From the NCBI RefSeq assembly GCF_003076755.1, contig NZ_QDKM01000001.1:310001-374000 (forward strand): a stretch of 64,000 nucleotides of DNA, read 5' to 3'. Under the pieces are notes generated by a model that made no database searches, was not told the DNA's origin, and was given only the letters and a program-made list of their open reading frames with translations. A program made the translations under genes and the position numbers. Shown here in pieces: positions 24,686 through 51,037 of this stretch; the first letter of the stretch is position 1, and each line of letters starts with the position of its first letter. The DNA comes from Pararhodobacter oceanensis (lineage in GTDB: Bacteria > Pseudomonadota > Alphaproteobacteria > Rhodobacterales > Rhodobacteraceae).

Positions 24686-24928
24686 GGTTTCGGCTCCTTT
24701 GCAGGGTCACGGATGGGACGAGTGTAACCCCTCGGCGCGGCAGGGAAAGGGGGCGGATGGCGCGGGTGGTTAACGCTTGCGTCAGAAGCTGTTCGGGCCG
24801 CGGGTGGTTTCAGGGCCGATCAAGCCCCGCCGCTGGCCGCCAAGTTGACGCAGGGTGCGGGAAACTCTTGGCCTGCCGCCCTTGGCCCTGCGCGCCCGCA
24901 TACCTAGATCAGGGAAAACGGAGTTCCC

Positions 24929-25930
24929 ATGTATCATTATTCCCTACTCGATCTGGCGCCGGTCGCCGAAGGCAGCAGCACGGCGCAAGCGCTGGAAAAC
25001 ACCGTGGCGCTGGCGCAGGCCGCCGAGGCTGCGGGCTATCACCGCTTCTGGCTGGCCGAGCACCATAATATGCCGGGCATTGCCAGCGCCGCGACGGTGG
25101 TGGTGATCGGCCATGTCGCCGGTAAGACCCAGAGCATCCGCGTCGGCGCCGGTGGCATCATGCTGCCCAACCACGCGCCTTTGGTGGTCGCCGAGCAGTT
25201 CGGCACGCTGGCGACGCTATACCCTGACCGGATTGATCTGGGGCTGGGCCGCGCGCCGGGCACCGATATGGCGACCGCGCGGGCGCTGCGCCGCCATATG
25301 GCGCCCGAGGACAGTTTCCCGCAAGATGTGCAGGAATTGCTGGACTATCTGGGCGAGAGCGACACCCCGGCCCGCGTCCGCGCGATCCCCGGTGAGGGCA
25401 CCAATGTGCCGGTGTGGATCTTGGGCTCCAGCCTGTTTGGCGCGCAGCTTTCGGCCTATCTGGGCCTGCCCTATGCGTTCGCCTCGCATTTCGCCCCGGC
25501 GATGCTGGATCAGGCGCTGGCGACCTATCGCGAGACTTTTCGCCCGTCGCAATATCTGGCCAAACCCTATGCGATGGTCGCCGCCGGGGTTTGTGTGGCG
25601 GATACCGAGGAAGAGGCGAACTATCACCGTTCGTCGCAGCAACTGGCCTTTGCGCGGCTGCGCACCGGCATGCCCGGGAAACTGCCCGCGCCGGTGCATG
25701 ATATCGAACAGCATATCCCGCCGCAGGTGCGCGCGGGCGTCGATCACGCGCTTTCGGTCTCGGCTGTCGGCACACCGGAGATGGCGCGTGAGCAGTTGCA
25801 GGCGATCATCGCCCGCTACCAGCCGGATGAATTGATGGTCACCGGCATGATCCATGATCCCGCCGCGCGCATCCGCTCGTTTGAACTGGCGGGGGCGGTG
25901 CTGAAGGATTTGCAGCGCCCAGCCGGCTAA
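24929..25930 (+). CDS. LLM-class flavin-dependent oxidoreductase
   Basis: The 333-residue protein belongs to the bacterial luciferase-like superfamily, in the MsnO8/YhbW branch (starting [21 protein letters not shown] in its N-terminus, then [20 protein letters not shown] and [11 protein letters not shown]). These F420- or FMN-dependent monooxygenases have diverse substrates. A GGAG is placed 6 bp before the ATG. It stands alone, convergent with nosX with a gap of only 6 bp. Unlike F420 enzymes of actinobacteria, FMN is the likely cofactor in this lineage. Confidence 0.88.
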
Positions 25931-36176: not shown

Positions 36177-37427
36177 CTAGCTGCGGCGTTTGCGTTTGTG
36201 GGTGAGGATCGGCCAGTAATGCAGCGCGAAACCGGCGAAAGCGGCGATCCACAGCGCGCCAGAGAGATGCGTGAACCAGAGGGGTGCGGCGCTATAGCCC
36301 GCGGTGAATCGCATGGCGGCGGCGCTCAGGATCATCAGGTAAATCACCCGCAGCGCACCGCTCGCCACCTGCGGTCGCCCCGCATGGGCAAGGCTCGCGC
36401 GCGACATCACCGCCAGTGGCATCACGCCGACCGCGCCAATCATCCAGATATGCTGCGCGGCGATTTCGGGGATCAAACCGGGCGCGAGACTTGCACCGCC
36501 GGTCAGCAAAAACCCAAGCGGGATAAAGAGATAGCCGATGTGCAAGATCCAAACCAAGGGCTCGGCCGCGGTCTTTTGGCCGGACCAGCGCGCCAGCCGG
36601 ATCAGATGTGCGGCCCCCGCTGCGAGGCAGAGCGCGGCGGTCACCGCATGCTCGGGCCGCGCGACATAGGCGAAGAGCGCCAGCGCGCCGAGGCTCAGGG
36701 CCAGCCGGTCGAGCGGGCCGAAGGGGTGCGGCAAGCCGCTGCGCTTTTGCTTGACCAGATAGTTGCGGGTGAAACTGGGCACCACGCGCCCGCCGATCAG
36801 CGTGACAAACCCCACCGCCACCGCCAGCCCAAGCCGGAATCCGGCGCCCCCCGCCGCGTAGTCACCGTGCAGCACCTGCCAATGAAACAGCCCATTCGCG
36901 GTGAGAAAGCCGAGAAACAGCGCCAGAACCGGCAGGTTGCGCCAGTTTTTCCCCGCCACAATCTCGCGCAGCATGGCCAGCGCTAGCAAGAGCGGAAACA
37001 GCAGATCGGCGGCAACTATCGTCAGAGGCGGCGCGGGGCTGAGCAGCGCCACGCGTCCCAGCGCCCAAGTCGCGGCCAGCACGGCGACCGGCCAGCCGAG
37101 GATCGGGAAACGGCCGGTCCAATTGGGAATCGCGGTTAACAGAAACCCGCCGAGAAACGCGCCCAATGCCCCGAACAGCATTTCATGCGCGTGCCACGAG
37201 ACGGGGTCCATCGGGGTGGGCAGGGTGATCCCTCCGGCGAGGCTGAAGATCCAGAGCACCATGGTTAATGCCGACCAGATCGCGCCGAACAGAAAGAACG
37301 GTCGGTAGCCGTAAGTCAGCAGTCCCGGCCCCGCCCATGCCCGCACGCGAGAGGTGGAGCGGCCGGGCGCATGCGCCGCCGCGGCGGAAGGGCTAGGTTT
37401 GGAGGGGCTGGTGTTCGGATCTCGCAT
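36177..37427 (-). CDS. nnrS: NnrS family haem-copper membrane protein
   Basis: The ~416-residue protein has about twelve membrane helices with the NnrS pattern: YGYRPFFLFGAIWSAL, WHAHEMLFGALGAFLGGFLLTAIPNWTG, GGRVVPSFTRNYL and HIWMIGAVGVMPLAVMSRA. NnrS relieves nitrosative stress and is regulated with denitrification genes. The ATG at 37427 is favoured; another in-frame start at 37466 exists, but both overlap the DUF2478 gene. The poorly conserved Ser/Pro/Ala-rich N-terminus makes the start uncertain. Confidence 0.88.
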   Translation of the reverse strand: MRDPNTSPSKPSPSAAAAHAPGRSTSRVRAWAGPGLLTYGYRPFFLFGAIWSALTMVLWIFSLAGGITLPTPMDPVSWHAHEMLFGALGAFLGGFLLTAIPNWTGRFPILGWPVAVLAATWALGRVALLSPAPPLTIVAADLLFPLLLALAMLREIVAGKNWRNLPVLALFLGFLTANGLFHWQVLHGDYAAGGAGFRLGLAVAVGFVTLIGGRVVPSFTRNYLVKQKRSGLPHPFGPLDRLALSLGALALFAYVARPEHAVTAALCLAAGAAHLIRLARWSGQKTAAEPLVWILHIGYLFIPLGFLLTGGASLAPGLIPEIAAQHIWMIGAVGVMPLAVMSRASLAHAGRPQVASGALRVIYLMILSAAAMRFTAGYSAAPLWFTHLSGALWIAAFAGFALHYWPILTHKRKRRS

Positions 37428-46019: not shown

Positions 46020-46928
46020 GTGACCGATTGGGACAAGCTTAGAATATTTCACGCGGTGGCGGATGCGGGCAGTCTGACACATGCCGGTGATGTCTTGGCC
46101 TTGAGCCAGTCTGCGGTCAGCCGCCAGATCCGCGGCCTTGAGGAATCGCTGGGAACGACGCTATTTCACCGCCATGCGCGCGGGTTGATCCTGACCGAAC
46201 AGGGCGAGTTGCTGTTCGAGGCGACGCGCAAAATGTCGAAAAACCTGGAAACCGCCTCGGCGCGGATCCGGGACAGCGAAGAAGAGGTGTTTGGCGAATT
46301 GCGCGTGACCACCACCACCGGTTTCGGCACCCTTTGGCTGGCGCCGCGACTGCCCGCGCTTTATGAGCGATATCCCGATCTGAAAATCGACCTGATGCTC
46401 GAAGAGCGGGTGCTGGACCTGCCGATGCGCGAGGCCGATATCGCGATCCGGATGAAAGAGCCGAGTCAGGCCGATCTGATCCGCAAGCGGCTGATGGGCG
46501 TGCGTATGCGGCTTTATGCGGCGCCGGAATACCTGAAGGAAAATGGCACCCCCTCCTCGCTGGCCGATATCGCGAATTTCCGCCTGATCTCTCAGGCGGC
46601 GAATGCGCCGCAGGTCTCGGCGGGCGCGGCGCTGGTGCGCGAACTCAACAGTCTCTCGCCCTCGTCGTCGTTTACGATCAACAATTACTTTGGCGTGCTG
46701 CAGGCGGTGGTGAACAATCTCGGCATCGGTTTGCTGCCCGATTACCTGACCGAGGACTTCCCGAATCTTGTGCGTGTGCTACCAGATGTCGAAAGCGCCG
46801 AAGTGCCGGTCTATCTGGCCTACCCCGAGGAATTGCGCCAATCCAAGCGGATCATGGCATTTCGCGATTTTGTCATGGAGGGGATTATCGCCTATCGCCG
46901 CAACCGCAGCGCGAACGCGCTACAATAG
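46020..46928 (+). CDS. LysR-family transcriptional regulator
   Basis: The 302-residue protein has the LysR winged helix (about 5-65, with GSLTHAGDVLALSQSAVSRQIRGLEESLGTTLF) and the substrate-binding domain (about 92-295). The start is GTG, giving MTDWDKLRIFHAV. Substrate and targets are unknown; it neighbours murI (divergent) and the small RNA at 47046-47120 (same strand). In related bacteria this LysR type lies next to cysteine or thioredoxin genes, but no such partner is present here. Confidence 0.9.
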   Translation: MTDWDKLRIFHAVADAGSLTHAGDVLALSQSAVSRQIRGLEESLGTTLFHRHARGLILTEQGELLFEATRKMSKNLETASARIRDSEEEVFGELRVTTTTGFGTLWLAPRLPALYERYPDLKIDLMLEERVLDLPMREADIAIRMKEPSQADLIRKRLMGVRMRLYAAPEYLKENGTPSSLADIANFRLISQAANAPQVSAGAALVRELNSLSPSSSFTINNYFGVLQAVVNNLGIGLLPDYLTEDFPNLVRVLPDVESAEVPVYLAYPEELRQSKRIMAFRDFVMEGIIAYRRNRSANALQ

Positions 46929-47010
46929 GCGAAACCTTGCCGAAACGCGCCAATAGTGAGTTATGCGCGCAACGCATCTCGGGTATGTCACCTGCGCAGC
47001 CAAGATTTTC

Positions 47011-47039
47011 TTGAAAGATCGAAGTGGCTGATCTATCTA
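47011..47039 (+). promoter_or_regulatory. Promoter of the predicted small RNA
   Basis: TTGAAA (47011-47016) and TATCTA (47034-47039) are separated by 17 bp, which is the ideal spacing. The predicted start is at about 47046, exactly where the first hairpin begins. The -35 has five of six consensus bases and the -10 three. Confidence 0.5.
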
Positions 47040-47045
47040 GAAGCC

Positions 47046-47120
47046 TAAGATACACGGCAATTGCCTGTATCTTAACCTCCCTGTTGGACTTATGGCCGAG
47101 CATCTGCTCGGCCTTTTTTT
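47046..47120 (+). ncRNA. Predicted ~75-nt small RNA with a CCUCCC seed
   Basis: The 5' hairpin has a 9-bp stem TAAGATACA/TGTATCTTA, a bulged C, a GGC/GCC extension and an AATT loop (47046-47074). It is followed by an unpaired linker (about 47075-47093) with CCTCCC, which can pair with ribosome sites, and a terminator hairpin with seven T. Promoter, stem, seed and terminator fit together as a trans-acting sRNA like those of Rhodobacter that use C/U-rich anti-ribosome-site motifs. An alternative is the 3' end of the LysR transcript. No known family was recognised. Confidence 0.5.
47094..47120 (+). terminator. Intrinsic terminator
   Basis: GGCCGAGCA-TC-TGCTCGGCC with a following tract of seven T (47114-47120) is a classical Rho-independent terminator. 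It ends the predicted small RNA and any LysR read-through. Confidence 0.85.
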
Positions 47121-47351: not shown

Positions 47352-49526
<2,175 letters not shown>

Positions 49527-50144: not shown

Positions 50145-50211
50145 CCGCCAGCCACTTGCACGCAAGCGGCGCGGGTTCTACATCTGTGTTAACTTTATAC
50201 GGAGACCCTGC

Positions 50212-50454
50212 ATGGCCATCACCCTGACTGAACTTGAAACGCTGCTGAAGGATGCGTTTCCGCAGGCAAAGGTCACAATTACTGATCTTGCCGGAGACGG
50301 AAACCACTATGCGGCGGAGGTCATAGACGAAAGCTTCCGCGGCAAGAACCGCGTGCAACAGCAACGCGCGGTCTATGCCGCCCTGAAGGGCAAAATGGAC
50401 GGCTCACAAGGCGAATTGCACGCTTTGGCGCTGACCACCGCGGCGCCCGACTAA
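50212..50454 (+). CDS. BolA-family protein
   Basis: The 80-residue protein has the BolA fold with GDGNHY, the FRGKNRVQQQRAVYAAL helix and the final ELHALALTT. Such BolA proteins pair with Grx4 to bind a 2Fe-2S cluster through the invariant C-terminal His. A GGAGA site is 7 bp before the ATG. The grx4 gene follows 223 bp downstream, matching a widespread bolA-grx4 gene neighbourhood. The protein is nearer IbaG/BolA1 in size than to E. coli BolA. Confidence 0.93.
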   Translation: MAITLTELETLLKDAFPQAKVTITDLAGDGNHYAAEVIDESFRGKNRVQQQRAVYAALKGKMDGSQGELHALALTTAAPD

Positions 50455-50677: not shown

Positions 50678-51037
50678 ATGAGCGCTGAACAGCAGATCAA
50701 AGATACCGTCGACGCAAATTCGGTCGTATTGTTCATGAAAGGCACCAAAACCATGCCGCAGTGCGGGTTTTCCAGCCGCGTGGCCGGAGTGCTGAACTTC
50801 ATGGGCGTCGAGTATATGGACGTCAATGTGCTGGCCGACGAAGCGGTGCGGCAGGGGATCAAGGATTTCTCGGACTGGCCGACGATCCCGCAGCTCTATG
50901 TCAAAGGCGAATTCGTCGGCGGCTGCGATATCATCACCGAGATGACGCTTTCGGGCGAGTTGGACCAGTTGTTCGAGACCAGCGGCGTGACCTATGACAA
51001 GGAAGCCGCCGAGAAAATCCGCGAAGCCAACGCCTGA
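50678..51037 (+). CDS. grxD: Monothiol glutaredoxin Grx4 (CGFS type)
   Basis: The 119-residue protein has the CGFS active site at Cys29 (TMPQCGFSSRVAG) and the glutathione-binding WPTIPQLYVKGEFVGGCDI. CGFS glutaredoxins carry 2Fe-2S clusters and work with BolA proteins in iron-sulfur delivery and iron sensing. The 50455-50677 gap holds only a small hairpin GCGAGG/CCTCGC (50542-50557). It is followed by a strong terminator. Confidence 0.95.
   Translation: MSAEQQIKDTVDANSVVLFMKGTKTMPQCGFSSRVAGVLNFMGVEYMDVNVLADEAVRQGIKDFSDWPTIPQLYVKGEFVGGCDIITEMTLSGELDQLFETSGVTYDKEAAEKIREANA

Follow-up and report, generated by a model that had tools for sequence, protein, structure and literature searches.

SorY (formerly RSs1543; Rfam RF02651) and SorX (formerly RSs2461; Rfam RF02784) are small RNAs known from Rhodobacter sphaeroides, and the mRNA of a spermidine transporter is a target of SorX. 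The existence of SorY as an RNA with a separate promoter has been demonstrated (PMC6238624), and it is reported to depend on RpoHI/RpoHII and to co-precipitate with Hfq (PMC5036791, PMC8307010), to limit malate import and to influence the stability of takP mRNA (PMC5036791, PMC6238624). SorX is described as originating in the 3' UTR behind ompR through RNase E cleavage (PMC6238624, PMC8625941), and CcsR1-4 originate in the ccaF1 3' UTR (PMC8625941). NfeR1 and AbcR act largely on transporter mRNAs, and NfeR1 carries three CCUCCUCCC motifs, one in each of three hairpins (PMC10746234). Furthermore, the RpoHI and RpoHII promoters of R. sphaeroides have in common a TTG at -36 to -34 and a high weight on A-12, with RpoHI preferring C-37 and T-9 and RpoHII preferring C-14 and T-13 (PMC3441632).

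The 64-kb stretch of Pararhodobacter oceanensis DNA analysed here (hereafter the window) holds an element that bears comparison with each of these RNAs. Like R. sphaeroides SorY, it stands between a LysR-type gene and purL and combines an RpoH-type promoter of equal spacing, a 5' hairpin from +1, the linker ACCUCCCUGUUGGACUU and a terminator; unlike it, the 5' hairpin is shorter and differs in sequence, with 30 nt from the predicted +1 to the linker core as against 40 nt in the R. sphaeroides locus (L112; see below). The linker core, the terminator type and the two-hairpin plan recur in SorX, whose host gene, however, is ompR and whose conserved 5' hairpin sequence is absent from the window element. 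The alphaproteobacterial sRNAs NfeR1/alpha-r14, AbcR, CcsR1-4 and mmgR, too, expose a C/U-rich anti-Shine-Dalgarno motif outside their paired regions. Compared with the three CCUCCUCCC-bearing hairpins of NfeR1/alpha-r14, the window element has two hairpins and a single CCUCCC, and the mmgR model scored it at 24 bits, against a cut-off of 41.

Anatomy and identity of the element

Promoter, 5' stem, CCUCCC linker and terminator are contiguous at 47010-47120 (Table 1). On re-reading, the gapless order given by the initial annotation, from a TTGAAA-17-TATCTA promoter to a seven-T terminator, was found in full; these sequence features are real, and the whole looks like a genuine small-RNA gene. 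Its 12-bp 5' stem is likewise present, made up of two runs of pairs (47047-47054 with 47066-47073, and 47056-47058 with 47063-47065), one bulge, and U47046-A74 as the twelfth pair. The predicted fold of 47046-47120 has an energy of -33.3 kcal/mol (z -6.99), which 0/200 shuffles equalled. A terminator scan of the region found one site, no excess over the shuffle mean of 1.1, so the scan alone is no evidence, but the element taken as a whole exceeds chance, the only gathering-level Rfam match in the window falling on it; a terminator is also seen in the listed LysR-purL copies.

Table 1. Features of the putative SorY locus and its neighbours, in window positions
Feature	Position	Strand	Basis or detail
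Promoter TTGAAA	47011-47016	+	sequence reading
Promoter TATCTA	47034-47039	+	17-nt spacer after TTGAAA
RpoH-type promoter (predicted)	47010..47038	+	C-37, TTG -36 to -34, C-14, T-13, A-12, T-9
SorY-orthologue RNA (predicted)	47047..47120	+	predicted +1 A47047 to last T of run
5' hairpin	47047..47073	+	8 + 3 pairs, one bulge, AAUU loop; fold
Single-stranded linker ACCUCCCUGUUGGACUU, putative anti-Shine-Dalgarno seed	47075..47091	+	conservation, predicted target pairing
CCTCCC in linker	47076-47081	+	sequence reading
Intrinsic terminator	47094..47120	+	8-bp stem (47094-47113), seven T (47114-47120)
LysR-type regulator gene, conserved upstream neighbour	46020..46928	+	Pfam HTH_1 and LysR_substrate
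purL, conserved downstream neighbour (start codon provisional)	47352..49526	+	NCBIfam NF002290, 965.8 bits

The promoter carries all the RpoHI and RpoHII features given above. A sigma-70 reading was set aside, as none was called by the sigma-70 scan and the RpoH form both matches and is conserved. The start had been said to coincide with the stem: the promoter is indeed placed at the stem, but RpoH numbering puts +1 at A47047 rather than at 47046, giving a predicted RNA of ~74 nt where ~75 nt had been claimed.

The Rfam label of the element calls for caution. The single gathering-level match in the window is RF02784 (SorX) at 47041-47119, with 47.9 bits against a cut-off of 46.6 (E 1.5e-8), while RF02651 (SorY) reaches 46.9 bits on the same element, under its gathering cut-off of 111. 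At E <= 0.001, SorX matches occur in 379 and SorY matches in 370 of 394 family genomes; above the cut-offs, the numbers are 311 for SorX and one for SorY. The RF02651 cut-off is thus a poor test of orthology, being passed by 1/394 genomes and failed by other LysR-purL copies too. Moreover, 16 chosen LysR-purL loci divide at Rfam thresholds into 7 called SorX, 1 called SorY (R. sphaeroides) and 8 with no label, so the label fails to separate the two RNAs. These thresholds are a calibration problem of the Rfam library.

The one genome above the SorY cut-off (G051) has SorY at C4:1,632,645 and SorX at C4:2,598,225; since R. sphaeroides SorY is reported to start at 1,632,642 and SorX to have its 5' end at 2,598,224 (PMC6238624), this genome is very probably R. 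sphaeroides. Its SorY locus (L112) has a LysR gene before it (76.6% identity to that of the window) and PurL after it (84.6%), both over the stretches compared, and the order LysR-SorY-purL is common to both genomes. By contrast, LysR and PurL were absent from the 1.5-kb flanks of the best 30 SorX loci, and an OmpR-type regulator gene stood closely upstream in all 11 of these that were read; the gene upstream of the window element is LysR, and ompR lies on another contig. A profile of LysR-purL copies, trained without the window and L032-L037, scored the element at 45.6 bits, against 22.7 for a profile of 30 SorX copies, which covers it only at profile positions 35 to 79, that is, linker and terminator without the conserved SorX 5' hairpin.

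On the strength of synteny and this profile comparison, we file the element as SorY despite its 46.9 bits against the RF02651 cut-off of 111, and regard its Rfam label as a cross-match to the paralogue. The probability that it encodes an orthologue of the R. sphaeroides stress sRNA SorY is put at roughly 0.87. The kinship to Rhodobacter stress sRNAs proposed in the initial annotation thereby becomes predicted orthology, and its description as new has to be given up: as judged from sequence, the gene is this bacterium's copy of a known RNA rather than a new sort, and Rfam already flags the locus under the paralogue's name. A mislabelling is corrected in this way, as Rfam calls LysR-purL loci SorX or nothing, and the synteny rule together with the promoter signature offers a means of finding SorY across Rhodobacterales. 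A literature search found no paper placing SorY at LysR-purL or giving its range, although the original SorY paper may do so.

Conservation of promoter, stem and linker

Copies were drawn from the best 80 loci listed by a LysR protein search and from 30 further loci of a SorY search (110 considered). Two without the exact search word were left out, one with a one-letter variant of the linker word (L063) and one in which neither the word nor a variant was found (L086), and the window was added, giving 109 copies; 99 of these, with TTG-N20-TANNT, entered the fold counts, and 92 distinct copies the arm and linker test. Among the best 80 LysR loci listed, the element is present at 79, the PurL word WNEHCSYK follows downstream at 75, and the linker word CTCCCTGTTGG lies within 900 nt past the LysR match at 73 (at 131-360 nt). 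Five loci have the linker word farther from LysR, by 0.9-2.6 kb (L053, L058, L106, L107, L111), and in the four of them that have a PurL word on the locus (all but L111) the RNA sits ~0.3 kb ahead of that word. Away from LysR, the RNA at these loci stays close to purL and retains its own promoter, in line with an independent gene. LysR or PurL was found in the short flanks of 28 of the 30 SorY-search loci; L118 and L126 had neither, yet were retained.

The promoter is conserved along with the locus. CTTG-N19-NTANNT stands just before 95 of the 109 copies, as compared with 0/109 in the upstream control, 0/109 in the downstream control and at most 1/109 in any of 20 rounds of shuffling, and alignment of 99 copies on TTG-N20-TANNT puts a purine at the predicted +1 in 97 of them. 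In R. sphaeroides, the promoter-predicted start (1,632,644) falls two bases from the mapped one (1,632,642). Within the 64-kb window, CTTG-N19-CTANNT has three matches, the promoter of the element among them, against a shuffle mean of 0.27, and none of 100 shuffles had three or more. Match and conservation together argue for an RpoHI/RpoHII-type promoter of the RNA's own, consistent with the free-standing sRNA gene that had been predicted. A search of the window's genome for rpoH returned one gene over the cut-off, two RpoH-like genes below it and, weaker still, a fourth match which probably represents the main sigma factor; hfq is represented by one gene.

RpoH-like promoter matches were also seen elsewhere on the plus strand of the window. 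One (50155-50183) lies ~20 nt ahead of the predicted start codon of a BolA-like gene at 50212, which is followed by a Grx4-type glutaredoxin gene (50678-51037); another (24881-24909) lies directly ahead of a luciferase-like monooxygenase ORF (24929-25930).

The linker CTCCCTGTTGGACT, the first 11 letters of which are the search word, is invariant in 92/92 distinct copies. The part before it folds with at least 8 pairs in every one of the 99 copies, and in 92 of them pairing starts at the predicted +1. When stem arms were swapped between copies, a test that takes the best offset and so raises own and swapped values alike, own arms averaged 7.0 paired positions out of 8 and swapped arms 5.8 (highest of 200 rounds, 5.98); 4 of the 92 distinct copies paired at 5 positions or fewer, and fully paired 8-nt arms were counted in 26/99 copies (arm-swapping test, 92 distinct set). 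When the 99 copies were put through a plain MAFFT alignment, consensus folding recovered neither stem, probably through misalignment of the 5' hairpin, whose length and sequence vary; support for the stem comes from the per-sequence folds and the arm swapping. The letters of the 5' stem vary and its pairing is kept, so that the stem complementarity at issue in the initial annotation is retained in relatives between LysR and purL. These copies form a natural alignment for testing conservation of seed and target.

Predicted targets and mode of action

TakP-type starts came from the 28 family genomes, among 61, in which a match reached E <= 1e-25, plus two further homologues of the window's own genome, with strands from the search table. 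Of 32 loci, 31 were used and L229 was left out for its incomplete flank, as were two additional matches without a locus; R. sphaeroides is among the 31, as are three homologues from the genome of the window. Against these starts the linker reached a mean of -17.3 kcal/mol, compared with -10.6 for shuffled linkers (0/500 as good) and -15.3 for linkers in which ACCUCCC was kept and the rest shuffled (2/500 as good). As the full linker beats both kinds of shuffle, the anti-Shine-Dalgarno part and the UGUUGG part both fit. Ten of the 31 starts were weaker than -15.5 kcal/mol, four of them weaker than -12, and two gave only -8.5. All pairing energies are predictions that leave mRNA folding out of account. 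The anti-ribosome-site seed claimed in the initial annotation thus receives support, in the form of a single-stranded CCUCCC linker with predicted pairing to start regions above controls.

Within single genomes, the comparison was extended to DctP-type genes. In R. sphaeroides (G051), nine DctP-type loci were compared, and the linker pairs most strongly, at -22.8 kcal/mol, with the start region of the TakP gene, which was identified through its match to 2hzk. In the window's genome, 25 DctP-type genes had a median of -17.4, against -14.05 (p 2.8e-5) for a background of 184 genes; in both groups each gene was represented by whichever of several candidate starts paired best. The background consists of genes called by a simple rule on codon composition, in the window plus another 200 kb, and the window's own TakP homologue is one of them. 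The lowest DctP-type energy, -20.7 (L167), rests on an unlikely start codon. The three nearest TakP homologues (42, 41 and 32% identity) gave -20.0, -19.6 and -19.3 kcal/mol, the share of background genes doing as well being 1.6, 3.8 and 6.0%. A TakP-type mRNA is more likely than not a target in this organism. The third of these homologues, a TakP-like gene for a TRAP solute-binding protein, lies in the window itself (19337 onward, plus strand; 32% identity over 135 residues, ~-19 kcal/mol) and is a possible candidate target. The exact complement CAACAGGGAGG has two matches in the whole genome, namely the RNA's own opposite strand and L156 (G000:C1:785575), which does not fall in a convincing start region.

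By analogy with R. sphaeroides, transcription of the SorY orthologue during oxidative stress or heat stress would be driven by one or both of the RpoH-type sigma factors RpoHI and RpoHII, and the RNA would depend on Hfq, to which the U-tail of the terminator would be available. The predicted RNA opens with the base of its 5' hairpin, a structure likely to protect the 5' end, and the open linker would pair with GGGAGG and CCAAC-like sequence at the ribosome-binding sites of solute-binding-protein mRNAs, TakP-type TRAP receptors first. Blocking of the ribosome-binding site, likely with the help of Hfq, would lower translation and stability of these targets, and the import of organic acids would thereby be reduced during stress.

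Alternative readings and a diverged SorX-like sequence

Two other accounts of the element were weighed. That it is a SorX-type RNA, as Rfam labels it, is suggested by the RF02784 score above cut-off, by the linker and terminator common to both, and by the fact that no terminator is seen between LysR and the RNA. It is nonetheless very improbable: the best 30 SorX loci lack LysR and PurL in their 1.5-kb flanks and the 11 of them that were read have an OmpR-type gene upstream, the SorX profile scores half as many bits as its rival, a 5' end made by RNase E cleavage of an mRNA would sit poorly with the conserved promoter located there, a separate, diverged SorX-like sequence accompanies the ompR gene of this genome, and the Rfam label is undiscriminating at LysR-purL loci. 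Hardly credible is a reading as a mere terminator region of the LysR mRNA or leader of purL, with no RNA acting elsewhere. Such a role would suit the position between the two genes, and the terminator would also stop read-through from LysR; for a terminator, however, an invariant single-stranded linker, a promoter at fixed spacing and a paired but variable stem are superfluous, five loci have the element 0.9-2.6 kb from LysR, and in R. sphaeroides the orthologue has been shown to be an RNA that has a promoter to itself (PMC6238624).

A third possibility is compatible with the SorY-orthologue explanation and not exclusive of it, namely that SorY took over part of the SorX duty after seed divergence and that its target set widened. 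Behind the ompR gene of this genome (L142, G000:C8; ompR at 36246-36719, minus strand) lies, at a distance of ~190 nt, a SorX-like hairpin pair with the seed region ACTCCTTGTAAGACTT, whereas the canonical SorX seed CTCCCTGTTGGAC is kept in 12/12 congeners examined. This looks like a decayed SorX, its seed lost or changed in this species, which fits with the window element being the single SorX-type match in the genome. The changed seed and the linker common to both RNAs would favour a takeover, but nothing indicates a shift and the TakP-type matches are retained, so we consider it unlikely. Somewhat less doubtful, and offered tentatively, is a broader picture in which SorY would be an ancient brake on the synthesis of solute-binding proteins, under RpoH control and present throughout Rhodobacterales, fixed at LysR-purL and largely missed or mislabelled in current annotation, with the SorX seed lost here and SorY left as the sole canonical member of the pair, carrying both duties; its gene-and-promoter half is well supported, and the shared SorX/SorY duty is a guess. 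The diverged SorX seed, set beside the 12 congeners that keep it, provides a small natural experiment on paralogue replacement.
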